Shown here: piece after piece, positions 51,014 to 62,885 of the stretch
Layout: every line of letters begins with the position of its first letter
How positions within the stretch are numbered: the stretch's first letter is position 1
Assembly: GCA_025352825.1 (NCBI GenBank)
Contig: JANXSG010000063.1
Location: 1-62,885 of the forward strand
Source of the DNA: Chthonomonadaceae bacterium
Lineage (GTDB): Bacteria > Armatimonadota > Chthonomonadetes > Chthonomonadales > Chthonomonadaceae
DNA length: 62,885 bases
Direction: 5' to 3'
Notes under the pieces: model-generated
What the model saw: only the letters and a program-made list of their open reading frames with translations
Databases searched by the model: none
What the model was told of the DNA's origin: nothing
Position numbers and translations under genes: made by a program

Positions 51014-54000
51014 ATGTGGATTGTACAGCTTGCCCTGCGGCGCAAGTTCACATTTATTGTAGTATCGTTGTTCATTGCTTTACTCGGCATACTCACGATC
51101 TTACGCACCCCGACTGATGTGTTTCCGACTATCGATGTACCGGTTGTAAGCGTCATATGGCAGTTTGGCGGAATGCCCCCGAAAGAGATGGAAGGGCGTG
51201 TCATTACCGTCTGCGAACGCGCTATGACTACAACGGTAAACGATATCGAGCACATAGAATCGCAGATATACCCAGGCGTTGGAGTCATCAAGATATTCTT
51301 TCAGCCCGGTGCTAACGCGCAGGCAGGTGTGGCGCAGGTTACCGCCATTAATCAGACGCTGCTGCGCGCTTTCCCGCCCGGTGCGACGCCGCCGTTCATA
51401 ATTCAATACAGCGCATCTAGCGTTCCAGTTCTTCAGTTCGGACTCAGCAGCCCTACCCTCTCGCAGACAGAGCTTTTCGACTTCGGTATCAACTTCCTTA
51501 GAACCAGATTGGCAACTGTCCAGGGCGCCTCGGTTCCGCTTCCCTATGGCGGAGCGGGAAAGCAGATATCTGTCGATATGGATATCCCTGCTCTTCAGGC
51601 GAAGGGGCTTTCTCCAAGCGATGTCATCAATGCAGTCAGCGCGCAAAACCTGATTTCTCCCTCCGGTACGATGAAGATGGGGGAGAGAGAATATGTAATT
51701 CGCACCAATACGCAGCCGGATGCCATCGAAGATTTTAACGACATCCCGGTAAAGATCATTAATGGCGTCGTTATCAAAATGCGTGATGTCGCGTTTGTTC
51801 ATGAAGGGCACGGCATACAGTCTAACATCGTCACGCAAAATGGACGCCCTGGAGTGCTGCTTATTGCCCTCAAGAGTGGCGGCGCTTCTACTATCGAGGT
51901 GGTCAAACGCCTAAAAGAGACTCTGGAGAAACTAAAGTCCACTTTTCCACCAGGCGTGCATCTGGAAATGCTTTTCGACCAGTCTATATTCGTAGAGGCT
52001 TCAGTTCAGGGCGTCATCCGAGAAGGTATTATCGCCGCGTGTCTAACGGCGTTGATGATCCTCCTCTTTTTAGGCAGCTGGCGCAGTACACTCGTCGTAG
52101 CGACTTCGATTCCCCTTTCGATCTTAAGCTCGATTATTCTGCTCGGTGCGCTTGGTCAGACAATCAATATCATGACCCTCGGTGGCCTAGCACTTGCGGT
52201 CGGAATACTCGTAGATGACGCAACCGTTGAGATCGAAAACACGAACCGTAATCTCGCTATGGGAGGCAAGACTCTCACACGTGCCATTTTGGATGGAGCC
52301 CAGCAGATAGCAGGGCCGACTTTTGTAGCAACCACGGCCATTTGTATCGTCTTCGTTCCAGTTGTCTTCCTGACAGGCGCTGCCAGATCGCTATTCCAGC
52401 CGCTCGCTATGGCGGTGGTCTTCGCGATGATGAGCTCTTATTTTCTTTCACGCACACTTGTACCGGTTATGGTGCAGTTCTTCATGCGCAAAGATGCCGA
52501 GCGGATCATTGCTGAGCATGAAGAAGAGGATACCGAGTTCGGAGGGATTGAGGCAGAAACAGCAATAAGCCATGATGCAAGCCATGACGGAACAGGCGCG
52601 CATAATGGAACTCAGCCGCATGCTTCCAAACGGAAAAAACAGCTGCCGCCTCCGCGGGGTATCGATGGAATCATATGGGGCATCCATCATAGATTCAATC
52701 ATCAATTCAATAATTTCAGATCTCTCTATATTCGAGCTTTGCGCTGGTCGCTGGATCATCGAGGCATAACCGCTGCTCTATTTACAGTGTTCTTCCTGCT
52801 GTCGTTCTGCCTGATCCCTTTCATAGGTGAAGACTTTTTCCCGACGGTTGATGCGGGGCAGATTGCGCTCCATATACAGGGTGCACCTGGTACTCGGCTT
52901 GAGGAGACCGCGCATCTTTTTCATGAGGTTGAGAAAAAAGTACATACAGTCATCCCGGCAAACGAGATCAAAACCGTACTGTGCAATATCGGTCTGCCAC
53001 TCGGTGGAGTTAACTTAGCATTCTCGAACAGTCCGACCATTGGCGCACTTGATGGCGATATGCTTATCGATCTAAAGCCAAATCACGCGCCAACCGGTGA
53101 ATATAAAGTGAAACTGCGGAGCGTGCTCAACCACTCGTTCCCGAACGCTACATTCTTTTTCGAACCTGCAGATATCACAACACAGATATTGAACTTCGGA
53201 CTTCCCGCCCCAATCGATATCCAGATTGTGGGAAGAGACCCAGGTAACTATGCGTTTGCTAAAGAGATCGCCCAGCGAGTCAAATCTATCCCGGGCGCAG
53301 TCGATGTACACCTGCATCAAGTCACAACTGTTCCTCAGCTGGATATCAATATCGATAGACAGAGGGCACAGGTGTTTGGGTTGACGCAGAAGGATGTTGT
53401 CGGCAACCTGCTGACTTCATTGGTGGGTACCGGTCAGGTAACGCCTAGTTTCTTCCTTGATCCGAAGAATGGTGTTAGCTATTCGGTACAGGTGCAGACT
53501 CCTCAGCGAAACGTCAGCTCGATTCAAGACTTGCAGAGTACGCCGCTCATTCCAGGGGCGCAGGCTTCCGCATCCAGTCTTTCGAGTGCAGCGCCTACGC
53601 AGCTTCTTGGAAATGTGGCCAGTATCAGTAGGAACCAGGGACCCCAGATCATCAATCACTATAACGTTCAGCCAACTTTCGATGTCTATGTGAGCGCTGT
53701 GGGCCGTGATTTGGGAGGCGTATCCAGAGATATCAATAAGGTGCTTGATGCGATGAACAAGAAAATGCCGAAGAGCACTACAGTAGTAGTGCGCGGGCAG
53801 GTTCAGAGCATGAACTCTTCGTTCTTCGGTCTCGGAATGGGTATGATCTTCGCTGTAGTGCTTGTCTATCTATTGATGGTGGTCACATTCCAGTCCTGGC
53901 TGGATCCGTTCATTATTATCACGGCGCTTCCGGGAGCGATTTCCGGTATCGTATGGATGCTGTTCGTGACACAGACGACTTTCAATGTACCCTCTTTAAT

Positions 54001-54472
54001 GGGCGCGATTATGAGTATAGGAGTGGCTACTTCCAATAGTATCCTGCTCATAACTTTTGCCAATGAGAGAAGGGAAGCCGGAGACAGCGCTCTGCATTCT
54101 GCGATAGCGGCAGGTTATACTCGACTGCGCCCTGTACTGATGACTGCTTTAGCGCTGATACTCGGAATGCTCCCGATGGCGCTGGGACTTGGGGAGGGCG
54201 GCGAACAGAACGCTCCGCTGGGAAGAGCAGTGATCGGCGGCTCGACATTGGCGACATTCACCACACTCATCTTTGTTCCATTAATCTATAGCATTCTCCG
54301 CAGCAAGAAAACGGAGATCGACGAGGAGCAGGTCGAAATCGACCGTTATATCAAAGATCAGGAGACGCTTAGACAGAAACACCTTGATGATGCAGAAGCA
54401 GAATCTCTGCAGCAAGCTCAACTACGAGAGAGAGCGGAAAATGAAGAAGCTCTCACCTCTGACCCAGTTTAG
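51014..54472 (+). CDS. RND efflux transporter, permease subunit (HAE family)
   Basis: A 1152-residue AcrB-like inner-membrane pump with 12 TM helices. The TM4 proton-relay aspartates are in GILVDDATVEIEN (both Asp present). In TM10 the position of AcrB K940 reads ATSNSILLITF, so the lysine is replaced by serine. A cytoplasmic loop between TM6 and TM7 carries an acidic, His-rich insert of about 45 residues (EHEEEDTEFGG, then ISHDASHDGTGAHNGTQPHA). AAGAAGG is 7 bases before the ATG. The adaptor gene follows 336 bp downstream with a repeat element between. No TolC-like gene is in the window. Substrates are unknown; multidrug, metal or lipid export are possible. Confidence 0.93.
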   Translation: MWIVQLALRRKFTFIVVSLFIALLGILTILRTPTDVFPTIDVPVVSVIWQFGGMPPKEMEGRVITVCERAMTTTVNDIEHIESQIYPGVGVIKIFFQPGANAQAGVAQVTAINQTLLRAFPPGATPPFIIQYSASSVPVLQFGLSSPTLSQTELFDFGINFLRTRLATVQGASVPLPYGGAGKQISVDMDIPALQAKGLSPSDVINAVSAQNLISPSGTMKMGEREYVIRTNTQPDAIEDFNDIPVKIINGVVIKMRDVAFVHEGHGIQSNIVTQNGRPGVLLIALKSGGASTIEVVKRLKETLEKLKSTFPPGVHLEMLFDQSIFVEASVQGVIREGIIAACLTALMILLFLGSWRSTLVVATSIPLSILSSIILLGALGQTINIMTLGGLALAVGILVDDATVEIENTNRNLAMGGKTLTRAILDGAQQIAGPTFVATTAICIVFVPVVFLTGAARSLFQPLAMAVVFAMMSSYFLSRTLVPVMVQFFMRKDAERIIAEHEEEDTEFGGIEAETAISHDASHDGTGAHNGTQPHASKRKKQLPPPRGIDGIIWGIHHRFNHQFNNFRSLYIRALRWSLDHRGITAALFTVFFLLSFCLIPFIGEDFFPTVDAGQIALHIQGAPGTRLEETAHLFHEVEKKVHTVIPANEIKTVLCNIGLPLGGVNLAFSNSPTIGALDGDMLIDLKPNHAPTGEYKVKLRSVLNHSFPNATFFFEPADITTQILNFGLPAPIDIQIVGRDPGNYAFAKEIAQRVKSIPGAVDVHLHQVTTVPQLDINIDRQRAQVFGLTQKDVVGNLLTSLVGTGQVTPSFFLDPKNGVSYSVQVQTPQRNVSSIQDLQSTPLIPGAQASASSLSSAAPTQLLGNVASISRNQGPQIINHYNVQPTFDVYVSAVGRDLGGVSRDINKVLDAMNKKMPKSTTVVVRGQVQSMNSSFFGLGMGMIFAVVLVYLLMVVTFQSWLDPFIIITALPGAISGIVWMLFVTQTTFNVPSLMGAIMSIGVATSNSILLITFANERREAGDSALHSAIAAGYTRLRPVLMTALALILGMLPMALGLGEGGEQNAPLGRAVIGGSTLATFTTLIFVPLIYSILRSKKTEIDEEQVEIDRYIKDQETLRQKHLDDAEAESLQQAQLRERAENEEALTSDPV

Positions 54473-54479
54473 TGCCCTT

Positions 54480-54795
54480 AGAAGTTAATTTGCATTCAGG
54501 ATGCACTCAATCTGTATTCGCGAGTAATATCAAAATCGGTTGAATTCACAAGATTCTTCCCTCACCCCCCCTCTCCCGAAGCTTCGGGAGAGGGGGAGCT
54601 ATAAATAGTTGGTCTCCTATTTTATGCCGGGTGGGTGGTAATGTATTGGGATTTAGCTTAAAACTTGGCGGTATACAGGAAACCTCCTGCGATAGTCACC
54701 CCCTCTCCCGAAGCTTCGGGAGAGGGGGTCGGGGGGTGAGGGTTTGAAGATGCTCGGGAGATGAAAATCCCTGGCTCGACAGATAACAGTTTAGA
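54480..54795 (+). repeat. diverged hairpin-ended element, copy D
   Basis: The left end AGAAGTTAATTTGCATTC followed by CTGTATTCGCGAGTAATATC resembles copies A and C, but its stem is broken. Two CTC-type hairpins follow in the same order as in A and B (around 54575 and 54692, each with CCCTCTCCCGAAGCTTCGGG), then GGGGGGTGAGGG. The right end is only a weak CCCTGGCTCGACAG near 54770. The element fills the 336-bp gap between the pump and its adaptor and runs up to the adaptor start. Confidence 0.6.
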
Positions 54796-54808
54796 CAGGA
54801 ATATCAAA

Positions 54809-56659
54809 ATGGCAGATAAAAACCAATCATCAAACGGACACACCAATCCAGGTGGTCATGGAAATAGAGATAATTACAACTCCGGTGCAAATAACCGACA
54901 AGGCGGCAGCGGGAAAGCTACTGTAGCAGCAATCTTGACGATATTGTTGTTTGCCGGCCTGCTTGTTATCGGGCTGCTTCCACGGCTAAAGCAGCATCGT
55001 AAAATAGAGGCGCTGGCACAGGCTGAGAATAGTGATATACCCAAGATTATGGTTATCAAACCTCAGCAGTCACCAGATACTACTTTGACACTGCCGGGAA
55101 GCACGCAGGCGATTGCTGACGCACAGGTCGGAGCTCGCACCACTGGTTACGTAATAAAGAGGTATGTCGATATCGGGTCGCATGTGCACGCGGGGCAGGT
55201 TCTCGCTGAGATAGATTCACCGGATGTGGACCAGCAGTTGATCCAAGCCGCCGCCCAATCTGCACAATCGAGAGCGACTGTGGAGCAGTCTCGGGCTGAT
55301 GTCGCCGCGAAGAAAGCGACGGAAGCTCAGGTTCGTTCTAACGTTGGGCAGGCTCAGGCGAATGAAGAACAGACGAAAGCCCAGCTCGCAGACGCGCAGG
55401 CGCGCCTAACGCAGCTCCACTCTGCCGAGGTAGCAGCAGGATCACAGCGTGATCAAGCGATTCAAGCAGTGGCGAGCCGTAAAGCAGATGTACGGCAGGC
55501 GAACACTCAGCTAGCTCTTGCTAAAGTGACGTTCGAGCGATACCAGACGCTTGAGTCTAAAGGTTTTGTATCCACGCAGCAGTTGGATCAGGAACGAGCT
55601 GCTTATGAAAACGCTAAAGCGTTAGTGAGTTCTGCAGAGTCTCAGCAGACTGCCGCGGAGAAAGCAGTGGATGGTGCGGAGGCAAACATCCGAAGTGCAC
55701 AGTCCAATATCGCGTCCGGAGAGGCACAGGTAAACGCAGCCCAGAAAAGTATAAACGCCTCTGCTCAAGCTGTAGCGGCCGCTCAAGCTGTAGTCGAATC
55801 CGCTAAAGCAGGAGTTCGAGGCAGCCAGTCCATCATAATCGCGAACCAGTATGCTCAGAATGCAAATCAGGCGAATGAACGTCGATTCGGGATTCTGCGC
55901 TCCTTCGAAAAGGTTGTAGCGCCATTTGATGGCGTGATTACGGCAAGAAATATCGATGTTGGATCGCTTGTGAATTCTGGCAGCGGCGCGGCATCAGGTG
56001 GAAGTTCCGGAGGAAGTACAAGCTCGTCCAGTTCTGCGAATATCGGCAGCGCATCCACTGCTGCCTCTTCTTCCAATACAGCCAGCGCAGGAGGGTTGTT
56101 CGGAATCGCACGTACGGATATGCTGAGAATTTTGGTTCCTGTACCTCAGGTATACGCAATTGCAATGCGTCCCGGTTTAACCACACATATAACTATGCGT
56201 GAATTCCCTGGCCAGATATTTGAAGGCACAGTTGCACATGTTTCCGGAGCAATGGACAGCGTTTCGAGATCGCTGTTGACAGAAATTCATCTTCCCAACA
56301 AAGATGGAAAACTGCTGCCAGGAATGTTTGCTCAGATCGTTATAGATCTCCCAACATCCAGTGGCGGCCTCCGTGTTCCTGCGACAGCAGTTCTGTTCGA
56401 TTCACTGGGGACGCGCGTCGTAATCGTTAATGCAGATAATACTATTCACTTTATCCCGGTGAAACAAGGGCGAGATTTCAATACGGATGTCGAGATTGTG
56501 GATGGTATAAAGCCTGACACAACTATCGTTCTAAGCCCCTCGGATGATCTTGTTGAGGGGCAGAAGATTATTCCTGTTCTTGCGCCTCCACGTCCAGCGC
56601 CGGGTGCTGCTCCACCACCAGCTCCTGCAGGGCAGCAAGCAACACCAGCGAAGAGTTAA
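54809..56659 (+). CDS. RND efflux adaptor (membrane fusion protein) subunit
   Basis: A 616-residue HlyD/AcrA-like periplasmic adaptor. A membrane anchor (VAAILTILLFAGLLVIGLLP) is near residues 35-55. The lipoyl half-domains (TTGYVIKRYVDIGSHVHAGQ; later FDGVITARNIDVGSLVNSG) bracket a very long Gln/Ala-rich coiled-coil hairpin (about 130-370). A Ser/Gly/Ala-rich low-complexity insert (about 50 residues, NSGSGAASGGSSGGSTSS onward) splits the second lipoyl half from the beta-barrel. The C-terminus is Pro/Ala-rich. ATG 54809 has AGGA 8 bases before it and is preferred to ATG 54761, which lies in the repeat element. It pairs with the RND pump and ends at a strong bidirectional terminator. Confidence 0.88.
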   Translation: MADKNQSSNGHTNPGGHGNRDNYNSGANNRQGGSGKATVAAILTILLFAGLLVIGLLPRLKQHRKIEALAQAENSDIPKIMVIKPQQSPDTTLTLPGSTQAIADAQVGARTTGYVIKRYVDIGSHVHAGQVLAEIDSPDVDQQLIQAAAQSAQSRATVEQSRADVAAKKATEAQVRSNVGQAQANEEQTKAQLADAQARLTQLHSAEVAAGSQRDQAIQAVASRKADVRQANTQLALAKVTFERYQTLESKGFVSTQQLDQERAAYENAKALVSSAESQQTAAEKAVDGAEANIRSAQSNIASGEAQVNAAQKSINASAQAVAAAQAVVESAKAGVRGSQSIIIANQYAQNANQANERRFGILRSFEKVVAPFDGVITARNIDVGSLVNSGSGAASGGSSGGSTSSSSSANIGSASTAASSSNTASAGGLFGIARTDMLRILVPVPQVYAIAMRPGLTTHITMREFPGQIFEGTVAHVSGAMDSVSRSLLTEIHLPNKDGKLLPGMFAQIVIDLPTSSGGLRVPATAVLFDSLGTRVVIVNADNTIHFIPVKQGRDFNTDVEIVDGIKPDTTIVLSPSDDLVEGQKIIPVLAPPRPAPGAAPPPAPAGQQATPAKS

Positions 56660-56663
56660 TAAT

Positions 56664-56714
56664 TTAGTCCTCACTTCCTCACTAAAATTATTTTAGTGAG
56701 GAAGTGAGGACTAA
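56664..56714. terminator. bidirectional terminator, 24-bp perfect stem
   Basis: TTAGTCCTCACTTCCTCACT plus AAAA (56664-56687) and its exact complement (56691-56714) form a 24-bp stem with a 3-base loop TTA. The A/T-rich top of the stem gives a T run on either strand. It sits between the convergent adaptor and ATP-grasp genes. Confidence 0.9.
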
Positions 56715-56748
56715 TTACTGACGAACACCTTGGTATCTTGCCTGAAGG

Positions 56749-57987
56749 CTAACTGATACCTAGGGGATATGCTTTTTTGAGCATCATTTCCCTAAATTCT
56801 CGAAACACACGGTGCATATGGGGGCCTTTATAAGGAAATATTTCGGGCTGATCCATGTTGTGTACCACCAGCGCATTATCCGCTTCAAATATCAGCAGTT
56901 TTCCATCTTGAGTTTCACCGCAGTCTATTCCAAAATACTCCAGCTGAAGTACTTCCGCCATTTTTACAATAGTTTTTCCGTGCCGATATCCGAAATCTTC
57001 GTCAAAATTGTTCATAAACCGCTCTTCTTCAGCACGTTTCTGGGCGTTCTCCAGCATTCCTGCATTCACATAGTGGATCATCCAGTTATCTGAGATACCC
57101 ATATGGCTGGGATATGCTTTTCCTTCGATTACGGCTATTCGGTACTTACGAAACAGCCCATCCGGGCTGTGATAATCGATAAATCTGGAAATATAAAAGT
57201 CGCTTTCAATTCGAGTAACGAGATAATTATTCAGATCATCCGTATTATCTACCTTCGCAAGGCCATGGCCTGCATGCGAGTCGAATGGACGAATGATTAA
57301 GGGGAACCCACCATCCGATAACAACGATTGCAGGGATATAGAATCTACACACAATTTCTCCAGCGAATCTCTACCAGCACGAACAGTGGCAGGAATAACG
57401 ATGTTGGTTATAGGAGCAAGAATATTATACAGCTGCTCCCGCCCCACTTGTGGTATAAACTCTGGCAGATTGATGACGGGTTTTGGCCAATCCGAAACCA
57501 AACGCTCTAATTCCTTAAAAACTGCTCTGGATTCTTCACTCTCTGATGCGATTACAAAGGCAAGATCGTGTTCCGGTATGGGAGGCAAGGGCATTCCAGG
57601 AACTATATAGAGCACATACATCGTGATATCCGAGTCTTCAATCAAGAATTCGATGGGTGTATTCGCGCTGATGTTTCCTGCGGCGGCAAATGCGAGAAGT
57701 TTGATCTTAGGTGATGAGGTCTTAGCAGGCATTTGGTACAGCCTGCACAGAATAAGAGCATGCTCCTGAAGTACCATGCCTCGCTCTGCATTATCCAGCA
57801 TTTGGTCGATCAAGCACATATCCATCAGTGCAGCCGCGTCGGAGTTGTCTTTCGCATAACGTGCGGTCAAATACTGCCATATAGGCGCGAGATCGACACC
57901 ATCAAATCTCAATTTACCCAGTTTTGCAAGGCCCATTATCGGAGGGATGGAAGCATCCATCGTTTGATAATCTAGAGATTGTTCCAA
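56749..57987 (-). CDS. ATP-grasp ligase of the RimK/glutathione synthetase-like group
   Basis: A 412-residue protein. Residues about 1-100 form a helical leader, about 100-235 a pre-ATP-grasp domain (LLAFAAAGNISANTPIEFL; LYIVPGMPLPPIPEHDLAF), and about 235-400 an ATP-grasp domain with FPLIIRPFDSHAGHGL, RKYRIAVIEGKAYPSHM and the metal/ATP acid loop GKLLIFEADNALVVHNM. These enzymes ligate a carboxylate to an amine via an acyl phosphate. The start is TTG 57987; ATG 57960 would remove nine residues. It is the last gene of a three-gene operon, 23 bp after the fold-I PLP enzyme, so the natural guess is that it joins an amine made upstream to an acid. Similar stand-alone proteins are known in Proteobacteria but uncharacterised. 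Confidence 0.75.
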   Translation of the reverse strand: MEQSLDYQTMDASIPPIMGLAKLGKLRFDGVDLAPIWQYLTARYAKDNSDAAALMDMCLIDQMLDNAERGMVLQEHALILCRLYQMPAKTSSPKIKLLAFAAAGNISANTPIEFLIEDSDITMYVLYIVPGMPLPPIPEHDLAFVIASESEESRAVFKELERLVSDWPKPVINLPEFIPQVGREQLYNILAPITNIVIPATVRAGRDSLEKLCVDSISLQSLLSDGGFPLIIRPFDSHAGHGLAKVDNTDDLNNYLVTRIESDFYISRFIDYHSPDGLFRKYRIAVIEGKAYPSHMGISDNWMIHYVNAGMLENAQKRAEEERFMNNFDEDFGYRHGKTIVKMAEVLQLEYFGIDCGETQDGKLLIFEADNALVVHNMDQPEIFPYKGPHMHRVFREFREMMLKKAYPLGIS

Positions 57988-58010
57988 ATTGTTTCCGATC
58001 TTATGTGGGA

Positions 58011-59585
58011 TTAAGCAGCCTTCATATATACTGCTGGGAGATGGCGCGCTATAAGTTCGATTTTATCGAGTACAGCAGCTATCTCTTTTTTTTCGTGGTC
58101 GATATTGAGTGATCGAGAATCGGAATTGCGTGCCCAGATATTCGAGACCATACCTGCGCTGGCACATATTCGGAGTGCGCCGAAATCATTCTCGCCATCA
58201 GCCGAAACGTTCACCGGCTGTCCGAGATGACATATCTCAGCAGCAAGCATTCTCTCTTCATGGGAGAGTGCATGTGGCAGAGTGCTGATGTTATTCTGAT
58301 TTAGAGCCTTGTAGATACTGGTCGCATCTGTGAACGAGATGAAGTACTTCTGCTGTCGAATAAGGATGGGGAATATCGTTCGATTACACATCTCTTCGTC
58401 ATCGATCTCATCGATGGGCTGATCCAGCTCCGGAATGAGAAATATATGTGGAAACCGAACCTCGATCTGCTGATTCACCATCTCCTCAAACTTCTTCAGA
58501 GCTACTGTTCGGAACTCCAGCGGAATCGCATAATATGTTTTCATCTCGTGGAGTGCGGCGGCCCATCGAAAATACTGACCGTAATTTTCATTTGTGGGAA
58601 GATGAGATCGGATATTTGTCCAGCTTACGGGCCAGTCACACGCATTTGAGTAATCAGATAAACCTGTTGGAAAGTTTTCAATCTTGGATATGATGCCACT
58701 CATCACTTTCGGGACGAGAAGTGCGCCGCTGAATGGAGGACCTGCGAAGAACTTGGAGCCACTGATGAGAACGATATGCCCTTGATTCAGATGCCATCGA
58801 AGCCGTGACCGACTTAACCGCATCTGACAGGCATCGACAACAACATTCACCTCATCTCCGAATCGACTTTTAATCTCCTCCAAACACTTCACACTTGGAC
58901 ATCTCGCACCAAGTTTTGAACTGTCCATTGCTTGAAGCAGAACATGATGGCCTTTTCGCACAGAGCTTGTTACGGTATCTAAAATCACTTGATCGATATC
59001 TTCGAGAGATATCGGTGTCCCATGCTGAGTACGTAGAGCCACAGGAATGACGGTCACTCCTTCTTCAAGCCCGGCAATCGGATTGCCCTTAGAGACGAGA
59101 ACTCCCTTGGAAGTGATCGTACTGAAATGCTGTCCGGAGAGAGCGTTTGGGACGCCGCTGCCAGTTTCATCAGAAGCCAGCATGATGCAGTCGAGCGGCT
59201 TACCTACAGCAATTCCCTTGACGAGTGAGAGCGCTTGGAGCACTGAATCTGTACCGGAGGGAGAGAAGACTATCTCAGTACCACTTCCTTTCAGATCAAG
59301 TACGTTGAGGAGTTCGTGGCGGATGTTCCCGAACTGCACGTCTAGCTGCTTGCTGAATGGGTGACATGAGATCAGTCTATCTCCTTCGACTTCTAAACGA
59401 TGATATGCCTGTGTTGATATGGAACTTGCAGTAGAGGAGCCGAAACTATGGACGTGTGGTCGTGGCAGAGGGCTGCATCCGAAATTGTTCAGCCCAGTCT
59501 GGTTATCGACTATTATACGTGCATCTCCGCCACTGACAAGTATCTGCTCGATAGGCGCTTGAAGTATTTCGAGTGCTCCACTCAT
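58011..59585 (-). CDS. fold-type-I PLP-dependent enzyme (class V aminotransferase-like)
   Basis: A 524-residue protein. The PLP fold is visible from SPSGTDSVLQALSLVKG (phosphate-cup region) through VVVDACQMRLSRSRL (Asp that binds the pyridine N) to ISGSKFFAGPPFSGALLVP, where K in SGSKFF is the likely Schiff-base lysine. The N-terminal ~75 residues and the C-terminal ~180 residues are longer than in standard class V enzymes. The start overlaps the decarboxylase stop as ATGA, so it is translationally coupled to that gene. It could be a transaminase, a desulfurase-like lyase or an acyl-transferring enzyme; motifs do not decide. Confidence 0.75.
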   Translation of the reverse strand: MSGALEILQAPIEQILVSGGDARIIVDNQTGLNNFGCSPLPRPHVHSFGSSTASSISTQAYHRLEVEGDRLISCHPFSKQLDVQFGNIRHELLNVLDLKGSGTEIVFSPSGTDSVLQALSLVKGIAVGKPLDCIMLASDETGSGVPNALSGQHFSTITSKGVLVSKGNPIAGLEEGVTVIPVALRTQHGTPISLEDIDQVILDTVTSSVRKGHHVLLQAMDSSKLGARCPSVKCLEEIKSRFGDEVNVVVDACQMRLSRSRLRWHLNQGHIVLISGSKFFAGPPFSGALLVPKVMSGIISKIENFPTGLSDYSNACDWPVSWTNIRSHLPTNENYGQYFRWAAALHEMKTYYAIPLEFRTVALKKFEEMVNQQIEVRFPHIFLIPELDQPIDEIDDEEMCNRTIFPILIRQQKYFISFTDATSIYKALNQNNISTLPHALSHEERMLAAEICHLGQPVNVSADGENDFGALRICASAGMVSNIWARNSDSRSLNIDHEKKEIAAVLDKIELIARHLPAVYMKAA

Positions 59586-61033
59586 TTACAGCCTCGTGTT
59601 CGTCCCAAGCGGCAGACTTCATCCACCAGAAGATCTAGGTCAGCTGTCACAGTTCTGTGATTAGTTATAGCGACTCGGATAGCGGTTCGACCAGCGAGAG
59701 TGGTGGTGGAAGGAGCGGCAATTCCCTGCGTCTGGAGTTCAGTTACGATAGTTTTATTTAGCTCATTCAGTTCGTCCTCTGGAACGCCTGGTATAAAATA
59801 TCGGAAGCAGACGATGTTCATGGTGACTTCCGCAAGCAGCTGAAGATTGCTGCTGCACTTAACCAGTTCGCCAAGATAACTAGCCTGCCTGCAGTTTTGA
59901 GAGATGAGATCGGCAAATCTCTGAATGCCATATGCTTGAATTGTGAACCAGACTTTGAGGGCACGAAATCCTCTGGATAACTCTGGCCCGTATTCACAGA
60001 ACCATGGCTCTCCGCCGGCTAGTCCATCATTTAAACTTGTTAGATAATCCACTCTGCTGGAGAATGCTTTTCTATGCGCCGCTTCATTCTTTATCAACAC
60101 GCAGCCTGCATCGTAAGGTACGTGCATCCATTTATGAAAATCGAACGCAATAGAGTCTGCGCGTGCGATGGCAGCCAGCGATTCCTTATATTCTGGAGCT
60201 AACACAGCCAGCCCGCCGAAAGCGCCATCTACATGCATCCAGATATTTTGATCTCGGCAGATGTCAGCGATGCTACACAGATCATCGATGGCCCCTGTAT
60301 TCACAGTTCCAGCGGAGGCGACCACTGCGATCGGACGCAGACCACCTGCCCGATCAGCTGCAATACTCCGTTTCAATGCCTCGATATCCATACGATAATG
60401 TTCGTCTACAGGAAAGCGGCGTAGTGCATCTTGACCTAACCCTAGCAGATCGAAGGTTTTTGCAACGCTGCAATGAGCCTCACTGGATGTGTAGCCAACC
60501 AGCCTGGCAGGAAGTCCTTGTAGACCGAGTTTCTGAACATCGCCGCCCGCATGAGTATTACGAGCGACTGTAAGCGCAATCATGGTTCCCATGGAAGTGC
60601 CGGTAGTGACGACCCCACTGCTGTCTTCAGGAAATGAGAATATCTGTTTACACCAGTCCAGTACCTGCCGCTCAATATAGACGGCTGCATGATCTCGGCC
60701 ACCGACGTTGCTGTTCATAAACGCAGCGAGCATCTCCCCCATTACGCCTGCAATATTGCCGCTTCCATGCACCCAGCCAAAGAAGCGCGGATGAGTGTTC
60801 CCGTTACTATATGGCAGCATCGAATCTTGAAAATATGTAAAAAGGTCATTGAGAGAGTGCTCTTCTGTAGGGATATTTCCGTGTTGTCTCAGTGTCGATT
60901 CCGATGGAACTTGCCGCCATATGGGACGTTCGCGAACGTTTTTCATCATCCCAATACAATGATCGATAGCCTGATGAAAAACGTCGCTAACGTCGTCCCA
61001 GTTTTCCGGATCCAGTGTTGTTTCACTGATCAT
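59582..61033 (-). CDS. group II PLP-dependent decarboxylase (aromatic-L-amino-acid decarboxylase-like)
   Basis: A 483-residue protein of the pyridoxal-dependent decarboxylase family (AADC/glutamate decarboxylase-like). Motifs are HPRFFGWVHGSGNIAGVMGEM at about residues 85-105, the stacking His in SSEAHCSVAKTFDLLG, Asp of WMHVDGAFGGLA, and the PLP lysine in FDFHKWMHVPYDAGC. Such enzymes turn an amino acid into its amine, or in some members into an aldehyde. It is the first gene of the operon with another PLP enzyme and an ATP-grasp ligase. No strong ribosome site is seen before the ATG. The substrate is unknown; aromatic amino acids are a family guess. Confidence 0.86.
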   Translation of the reverse strand: MISETTLDPENWDDVSDVFHQAIDHCIGMMKNVRERPIWRQVPSESTLRQHGNIPTEEHSLNDLFTYFQDSMLPYSNGNTHPRFFGWVHGSGNIAGVMGEMLAAFMNSNVGGRDHAAVYIERQVLDWCKQIFSFPEDSSGVVTTGTSMGTMIALTVARNTHAGGDVQKLGLQGLPARLVGYTSSEAHCSVAKTFDLLGLGQDALRRFPVDEHYRMDIEALKRSIAADRAGGLRPIAVVASAGTVNTGAIDDLCSIADICRDQNIWMHVDGAFGGLAVLAPEYKESLAAIARADSIAFDFHKWMHVPYDAGCVLIKNEAAHRKAFSSRVDYLTSLNDGLAGGEPWFCEYGPELSRGFRALKVWFTIQAYGIQRFADLISQNCRQASYLGELVKCSSNLQLLAEVTMNIVCFRYFIPGVPEDELNELNKTIVTELQTQGIAAPSTTTLAGRTAIRVAITNHRTVTADLDLLVDEVCRLGRTRGCK

Positions 61034-61298: not shown

Positions 61299-62519
61299 AT
61301 GAGCAAATTAGACGAATTAAACACAAATAATGAAGGTGTCCGAAAAGAGTCTCCAGTGTTTTTACATAGCCTGCATTTGCAAAATATTCTATCGTTTGGG
61401 TCAGAAATGGTATCCGTTGAATTAGGCCCGCTCAATATTTTCATTGGGCCGAATGGTTCGGGTAAATCGAATTTTATTGAAGCTATTAATTTACTGCGTG
61501 CTAGTCCGCGAAACCTTGAAGATTTCATTAGTAAAGGTTATGGTGTTCAAGAGTGGGTATGGAAGGGTAAGCATGCTGGCAACTCGCAATTATTGGCTGT
61601 AGTAGCAAGCAGTGCTAATGAAATTCAAATTACACATAATTTTGAATTCAATCTAAATTCAACAAACTTCGCTTTGAGCCGAGAAGTTATATATGGTGAT
61701 TACTACGTGAACAAGACCAAGTCACCAATTTTCTTTTTCCGTAACGAGTCGATGAATCTCATGCTCAGAAACAAGAACAATGAGCAAGTCCCGATTCACG
61801 ATGATAATTTTAGCCGGGGCGATTCCATTTTGGCTCAACGCAAAGACCCTGAACAGTATCCTGAAATCACATATTTATCTGATCAATATAGCAAAATACG
61901 TATATATAGTGATTGGGTTTTTGGAAAAAAAACTATTTTCCGTGGATCTCAACCAGCCGATATGCGCACTCTAACTCTGGAGGAAGATTTTTCAAATTTG
62001 GGTCTGTTTCTTAATCGCCTACGCAGACTTCCTAAAGCAAAACAAGATATCTTTTCTCGATTACAAGATCTTTACGCCGGAAGGCTAGATTTCGATGTAA
62101 GTGTGGAAGCATCTCGAATTCAGATTTTTTTTACCGAAGGAGAGTTCGTGATACCTGCAGGACGTCTTTCTGACGGGACGTTACGTTATTTGTGTCTTCT
62201 TGCAATCCTTTGTGACCCGACACCACCTCCACTTATTTGTATTGAAGAACCAGAGCTTGGTCTACACCCTGATATCATCGTTAAGATTGCAGATTTACTC
62301 GTGGAAGCTTCAAGCAGGACACAACTTATTGTAACAACTCATTCGGAGATACTTATTGATGCAATGACTGAACGCCCAGAAGTCGTTAAAATATTCGAGA
62401 AGAATAATGGTCGAACACAGATCAAAAGCCTATCGAAAGAAGACTTAAGCATCTGGCTCCAAAAATATCGTCTCGGGGAACTTTGGATGAGTGGACAATT
62501 GGGAGGCACTCGCTGGTGA
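61299..62519 (+). CDS. AAA-family ATPase (SMC/RecF/OLD-like) of a two-gene module
   Basis: A 406-residue ABC/AAA21-type ATPase. Walker A is GPNGSGKSNFIEAINLL, the signature-like loop is RLSDGTLRYLCLLAI, Walker B is LICIEEPELGLHPDI and the H-loop is VTTHSEILIDA. The central region (about 95-290) is a helical insert. No nuclease domain is included, so the effector is probably in trans. AGGGG is 8 bases before the ATG, and the reading is AT-richer than the neighbouring operons, suggesting acquisition. It overlaps the downstream DUF4276 gene by 4 bp (GTGA). Such ATPase/DUF4276 pairs occur in bacterial genomes and resemble OLD or PARIS-like defence modules. Confidence 0.85.
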   Translation: MSKLDELNTNNEGVRKESPVFLHSLHLQNILSFGSEMVSVELGPLNIFIGPNGSGKSNFIEAINLLRASPRNLEDFISKGYGVQEWVWKGKHAGNSQLLAVVASSANEIQITHNFEFNLNSTNFALSREVIYGDYYVNKTKSPIFFFRNESMNLMLRNKNNEQVPIHDDNFSRGDSILAQRKDPEQYPEITYLSDQYSKIRIYSDWVFGKKTIFRGSQPADMRTLTLEEDFSNLGLFLNRLRRLPKAKQDIFSRLQDLYAGRLDFDVSVEASRIQIFFTEGEFVIPAGRLSDGTLRYLCLLAILCDPTPPPLICIEEPELGLHPDIIVKIADLLVEASSRTQLIVTTHSEILIDAMTERPEVVKIFEKNNGRTQIKSLSKEDLSIWLQKYRLGELWMSGQLGGTRW

Positions 62520-62885
62520 CCGACGCAATGATTTACGTAGAAGGCGCAGGTGAAAGCAATCAATTACGTATACGCTGCCGTGAAGGGTTTACGAATCTAC
62601 TTAAAAACTGTGGATTTGAAGGACGACTTCCAAGAATTGTCGCCTGTGGTGGGCGTGATATTGCATTCGATAAATTTAAGACTGCTATCAAAGAAGGCAA
62701 CCGCGCATATGTTGCTCTCTTAGTGGATAGCGAAGACCCTGTTGCACATATCGAAAAACCATGGGAACATCTCAAAAAACGCGACAAGTGGATATGTCCA
62801 GCCGGGGCTATTGATGATCAGGTTTTTCTGATGACTACTTGTATGGAGACCTGGATTATCAGCGATAGGGATTCACTGCGCCGTC
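62516..62885 (+). CDS. DUF4276 family protein (TOPRIM-like), 3' end beyond the window
   Basis: A partial gene, 123 residues visible. It reads VTDAMIYVEGAGESNQLRI at the start, ARIVACGGRDIAFD-like (RIVACGGRDIAFDKF), then VALLVDSEDPVAHIEKP and FLMTTCMETWIISDRDSLRR, which are DUF4276 landmarks; the E in YVEG and the acidic DSED resemble a TOPRIM metal site. GTG 62516 overlaps the ATPase stop, with GGAGG about 10 bases upstream, so translation is coupled. It is probably the effector or nuclease of the pair. The last ~70-100 residues are cut off by the window. Confidence 0.8.
   Translation, partial: MTDAMIYVEGAGESNQLRIRCREGFTNLLKNCGFEGRLPRIVACGGRDIAFDKFKTAIKEGNRAYVALLVDSEDPVAHIEKPWEHLKKRDKWICPAGAIDDQVFLMTTCMETWIISDRDSLRR

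Follow-up and report, generated by a model that had tools for sequence, protein, structure and literature searches.

A three-gene operon in the genome of a Chthonomonadaceae bacterium (Armatimonadota) almost certainly encodes a real, undescribed biosynthetic pathway. The operon specifies a PLP-dependent decarboxylase (DC), another PLP enzyme whose family has no name (PLP2), and an ATP-grasp ligase with a TPR-like N-terminal part; we consider it very probable that all of them belong to a single pathway. The novel part of this trio is PLP2, which is absent from the family models of Pfam and NCBIfam. A sequence-only reading of the same DNA did not recognise the set as a described pathway, and that statement stands within the open-access literature that we searched: the trio is described there neither alone nor in connection with flagella (subscription papers and preprints lay outside the scope of the search), and it is not mentioned in papers on Bradyrhizobium flagella or on graspetides and R2K.

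Layout of the operon

The window, by which we mean the whole stretch of 62,885 nucleotides that was analysed, is contig 53 of a 4.87 Mb genome in 298 contigs. The trio consists of three co-directional open reading frames on its minus strand (Table 1), and the one-strand arrangement with a 4-bp overlap and a 23-bp gap, as read earlier, was confirmed by the coordinates. We regard these frames as genuine genes because each has many homologues and because the trio recurs in other genomes. The start codon of the ligase is uncertain, since its frame remains open upstream and the paralogous gene begins further upstream, overlapping PLP2. A promoter scan revealed nothing conspicuous (7 found versus 7.8 expected).

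Table 1. Features of the operon and its flanks in the window
Feature	Position	Strand	Details
DC, group-II (AADC-like) PLP decarboxylase	59582-61033	-	483 aa, ATG start
Overlap DC/PLP2	59582-59585		4 bp
PLP2, predicted fold-type-I, class-V-like PLP enzyme, unnamed family	58011-59585	-	524 aa, ATG start
Spacer PLP2/ligase	57988-58010		23 bp
TPR-like + ATP-grasp ligase	56749-57987	-	412 aa, TTG start
Near-perfect long inverted repeat, possible bidirectional terminator	about 56655-56722		RNA fold
RND efflux pump (ACR_tran) and HlyD-type adaptor	51014-56659	+	convergent with the operon
AAA ATPase, then partial partner gene	61299-62884	+	partner truncated at the contig end

The unit had been said to end at a strong terminator. 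A strong hairpin does lie there, between the convergent ligase and efflux adaptor genes, and is very stable (folding energy -44.7 kcal/mol, z -11.3); however, it is without a clear U-tract, and a terminator scan that requires a T-tract made no call at this site. The hairpin may serve as a terminator, possibly in both directions. RND genes also occur near PLP2 in four other loci (L069, L016, L018 and L010), and the pump beside the trio is a possible exporter of its product, or a coincidence. On the other flank, the best PADLOC matches of the AAA ATPase and its partner are HEC-01A (E 2.8e-152) and HEC-01B (E 8e-48), respectively, making this pair a candidate anti-phage system.

Three enzymes with invariant catalytic residues

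DC is AADC-like, in agreement with the sequence-only reading: it matches Pyridoxal_deC (PF00282) with an E-value of 1.3e-67 (228.6 bits against a curated cut-off of 27), and its K301, D269, H187, H300 and Y330 are invariant in all 33 homologues compared. By analogy with AADC, we take K301 to be the PLP lysine, H187 to stack on the ring, D269 to contact the pyridine nitrogen and Y330 to belong to the catalytic loop; in AADC-type enzymes the loop Tyr separates decarboxylases from aldehyde synthases. The nearest solved structure in a search of the PDB is 4obu, from R. gnavus; homology to this protein, to AADC and to RhbB extends over the full length, and the PLP Lys, the Asp and His at the PLP ring and the catalytic Tyr are all retained. 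DC differs from 4obu in carrying an invariant GGR[DN] motif where the latter has GGSK. This region presumably corresponds to the lining of the substrate pocket in AADC, and our best guess is that the invariant R113 within it reads the substrate. DC also misses every NCBIfam equivalog cut-off by far: it scores 205 bits against the 900 set for the L-2,4-diaminobutyrate decarboxylase RhbB (NF052646), and falls far under the cut-offs for PanP (aspartate 1-decarboxylase), MfnA, histidine decarboxylase and GAD.

PLP2 of the window matches zero Pfam families at E<10 and no NCBIfam model, and a PDB sequence search with the PLP2 profile gave chance matches only. It does not match Aminotran_5 (PF00266), which detects 2 of 55 relatives, at best with an E-value of 0.005. 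An AlphaFold2 model built from the 55-sequence alignment has a pLDDT of 94.2 and a pTM of 0.94; in Foldseek its nearest structures are EgtE carbon-sulfoxide lyases, NifS and SHMT (probability 1.00), and across fold-type-I enzymes the TM-score is 0.5-0.67, and up to 0.68 by target length, at 10-14% identity. On the strength of this model we are confident in the earlier assignment of PLP2 as a fold-type-I PLP enzyme, with which its invariant class-V residues agree: S110-G111-T112-D113, D251, Q254, R256, S277-K278 and R472 are identical in 55 of 55 sequences. By alignment to class-V motifs, S110-T112 would form the phosphate loop, D251 would be the Asp facing the pyridine nitrogen and Q254 the cofactor Gln, with K278 as the likely Schiff-base Lys and R472 as the likely carboxylate-binding Arg. 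PLP2 shares with EgtE and NifS both the fold and the positions of S-G-T-D, D, Q, K and the C-terminal R; it differs from them in its low identity (about 14%) and in two additional conserved N-terminal motifs that are specific to the PLP2 family, GGDxRI and FxSxTASxIS.

The window ligase alone has no Pfam match above threshold, and its profile matches TPR and RimK/Ddl structures in a search of PDB sequences. Its AlphaFold2 model (pLDDT 94.4) places TPR-like helices ahead of an ATP-grasp module, with LysX/ArgX and D-Ala-D-Ala ligases as the nearest folds in Foldseek; the call of a RimK-like ATP-grasp ligase is thereby borne out, with the TPR-like N-terminus added to it. The fold is shared with RimK, LysX/ArgX and D-Ala-D-Ala ligases, as are the metal-ligand-type residues D355 and E368, which are invariant among the homologues. 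What sets the ligase apart from these enzymes is the TPR-like region and an equally invariant R233, at a position which we take to be usually Lys in this fold. Against the NCBIfam equivalogs it scores 21 versus 300 bits for CofF and does not match RimK. The TPR part could mean that the ligase acts on a protein. The sequence-only reading had named AlphaFold models and active-site comparison as a check on its proposal; the models of PLP2 and the ligase proved confident, and at the sequence level the catalytic residues are invariant throughout the trio.

Two variants of the ligase deserve mention. In Rhizobium and Mesorhizobium (L008, 10167-11876) it is longer by about 150 residues at the C-terminus, and on visual inspection this extension looks like a papain/C39-like cysteine peptidase (DDDCLIC, GHAVFWDG, DP), without a Pfam call. 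On a Cupriavidus plasmid (L012, 9911-11157) two open frames that overlap, both annotated as hypothetical proteins, together make up the ligase relative.

Conservation, partner exchange and origin

The earliest relatives that we found were on Rhizobium plasmids, among them a ligase-PLP2-DC operon of R. tumorigenes. We then searched 84,980 genomes with an alignment of seven PLP2 sequences and obtained 175 relatives; among the best 80 that were kept, all three families are present at 60 loci, and the trio co-occurs in at least six bacterial phyla. Five gene orders are seen: DC-PLP2-ligase in the window; ligase-DC-PLP2 in two Alphaproteobacteria MAGs (L015, L024); ligase-PLP2-DC in Rhizobium, Mesorhizobium and Hyphomicrobium; PLP2-ligase-DC in Bradyrhizobium, Rhodopseudomonas and an Acidobacteriales; and DC-ligase-PLP2 in Geobacter, Methylobacter, Gallionellaceae, Riflebacteria and others. 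Every pair also occurs as a fused open frame: PLP2-ligase in L016, L018 and L020, DC-ligase in L058 and L089, and DC-PLP2 in L092. The loci are partly MAG contigs and lone fusions could be assembly errors; this is unlikely for the three related PLP2-ligase fusions.

We also drew 398 Pseudomonadota genomes evenly, one of whose PLP2 carriers is the centre genome, known beforehand. PLP2 is present in 25 of them (about 6%), and at 17 of these 25 both ligase and DC are immediately adjacent; one more (G520) has pieces of the trio at contig ends, and two (G336, G399) have DC alone alongside. At four of the remaining five, PLP2 adjoins an unrelated ATP-grasp protein (Ddl-type at L139, L140 and L141, ATPgrasp_ST at L138). 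A Methylacidiphilales locus likewise pairs PLP2 with a TupA-like ATP-grasp, and on a Paraburkholderia plasmid the TPR-ATP-grasp adjoins a different class-V PLP enzyme. That one partner can be swapped for a functional analogue argues strongly that PLP2 and an ATP-grasp enzyme act on the same material. The trees of DC and PLP2 agree in their main groups. Taken with the intact catalytic residues, these counts uphold the proposal of a conserved functional unit, whose genes prove to be frequent, not rare, neighbours in other genomes. The wide distribution, the exchange of the ligase for other ATP-grasps, the lack of a family model for PLP2, the second copy of the operon and the flagellar surroundings described below all go beyond what the sequence-only reading had noticed.

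PLP2 relatives are also found apart from the trio. On Sinorhizobium/Rhizobium plasmids they lie directly 3' of giant NRPS/PKS genes and are annotated as hypothetical (L009, 11953-13485; L014, 7956-9449). In genomes of the R. tropici type (L013, 6811-7686 and 7896-9506) PLP2 adjoins a GST gene, and a ligase relative is located elsewhere on the same plasmid. These loci, in which DC is missing, indicate that PLP2 chemistry does not always depend on DC.

On contig 270 of the source genome the whole operon is present a second time, in the same gene order; its DC, PLP2 and ligase are 77%, 57% and 73% identical, respectively, to those of the window, and apart from the two DCs the genome encodes no Pyridoxal_deC protein. 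In the DC tree as well as in the PLP2 tree the second copy is sister to the window copy, so that the unit was probably duplicated within the lineage and retained whole. The nearest relatives of the window trio come from L015 and L024 (the DC of L015 is 58% identical). A sample of 290 other Armatimonadota genomes yielded no PLP2, which points to acquisition from elsewhere.

Predicted chemistry and flagellar neighbourhoods

We propose, with about an even chance of being right, that the trio forms a biosynthetic module which is self-contained, works without an NRPS and has spread horizontally. DC, judged by its enzyme class, would decarboxylate an amino acid to an amine; PLP2, judged by its predicted fold and residues, might act on an amino acid to yield a modified one, or an acid; and the ligase, classed by fold and sequence, would activate a carboxylate with ATP and form an amide with a partner that we can suggest from genetics. 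With intact catalytic residues in each of the three enzymes, the joining of an amine and an acid by the ATP-grasp ligase is the simplest chemistry. Since PLP2 and ATP-grasp form the tightest genetic link, the PLP2 product is most likely a ligase substrate, with the DC amine as the other partner; we put this specific flux at somewhat less than even, and the DC product need not reach the ligase. We would expect a small amide (a pseudo-dipeptide) as the product, or else an amide group on a surface molecule; the former reading we place close to even, perhaps a shade below. A known parallel is fungal E-64, which, as outlined in PMC12568646, is made by an NRPS-independent ATP-grasp peptide pathway: both are small enzyme sets ending in ATP-grasp amide formation (predicted for the trio). 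They differ in that the E-64 pathway starts from epoxysuccinate made by an oxygenase (PMC12568646), and the set of DC, PLP2 and TPR-ATP-grasp is undescribed in the open-access literature that we searched. We also considered a graspetide RiPP system and rejected it: the trio is without a precursor gene, and its conserved partners are PLP enzymes.

The genes around the trio raise an alternative, namely that the module modifies a flagellar or other surface macromolecule: the PLP enzymes would supply an uncommon amino acid or an amine, which the TPR-ATP-grasp would couple through an amide bond to flagellin, to a glycan of the flagellum or to a nucleotide-sugar. In Bradyrhizobium, FlgE-FlgK-FlgL lie upstream of the trio and FlbT and flagellins downstream; in Methylobacter (L067) the neighbours are flagellin, FlaG and FliD; in a member of the Gallionellaceae (L058) the trio sits beside FliEFGHI; and in a betaproteobacterium (L066) FliA is near and flagellin about 2 kb downstream. 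Flagellar genes also adjoin the trio in one member each of the Rhodospirillales (L043) and Riflebacteria (L059), in Sideroxydans (L081) and in a small genome (G386, L126); a 'FliA' match at L065 is probably RpoS and was disregarded. No flagellar match was obtained in 471 kb of random other regions from seven of the genomes with flagellar neighbours. These lineages were partly picked after their loci had been viewed, and the fairer figure comes from the unbiased sample with lineages collapsed: PLP2 lies within 15 kb of flagellin in 3 cases versus 0.38 expected (P ~0.005), and the full trio in 2 versus 0.21 (P ~0.02). TPR-glycosyltransferases are close by in some loci, and the source genome has six flagellin matches. 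Against this, neither trio copy of the source genome has flagellar genes nearby, the Rhizobium, Mesorhizobium and Rhodopseudomonas loci have none, and two genomes with the trio (G559, G295) have no flagellin match. Mere presence of flagellin is not informative, at 33 of 36 PLP2 genomes versus 330 of 398 in the background. We regard a service to flagellar or surface biology in some lineages as suggestive; as the general function of the module, modification of such a macromolecule is unlikely. In many Bradyrhizobium flagellar clusters PLP2 adjoins a 280-aa protein (L023, 7098-7937) that has no Pfam match and looks glycosyltransferase-like by eye.

The structural neighbours of PLP2 allow a sulphur pathway to be envisaged, in which PLP2 works like a C-S lyase or desulphurase, its product is decarboxylated by DC and then capped by the ligase, and a thiol or other sulphur metabolite results. 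The proximity of EgtE and NifS and the GST gene of R. tropici speak for it; however, similarity at this level of TM-score and identity covers many reactions, SHMT and aminotransferases included, and the GST context belongs to a single clade in which the trio is not nearby, so that we consider a sulphur route very unlikely. Chance clustering of three functionally unrelated enzymes, for which it counts that AADC-like and ATP-grasp families are common and that some genomes have PLP2 without the other two, is extremely improbable given adjacency kept in several phyla through shuffled orders, fusions and a retained duplicate.

The broadest form of our proposal, a new pathway built on an unrecognised PLP family and spread horizontally across several phyla to supply an amide metabolite, or an amide-linked group for flagella or the surface, is as a whole rather improbable. 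PLP2 itself is present in about one in sixteen of the sampled Pseudomonadota, escapes every family library that we searched and nearly always adjoins a ligase. Conservation of the trio points to the probable partners of PLP2; it could give a function to a family annotated as 'hypothetical protein' and lead to a natural product, or a modification of the surface, that is new. Culturable Bradyrhizobium, in which the trio has flagellar neighbours, offers a way in by genetics.
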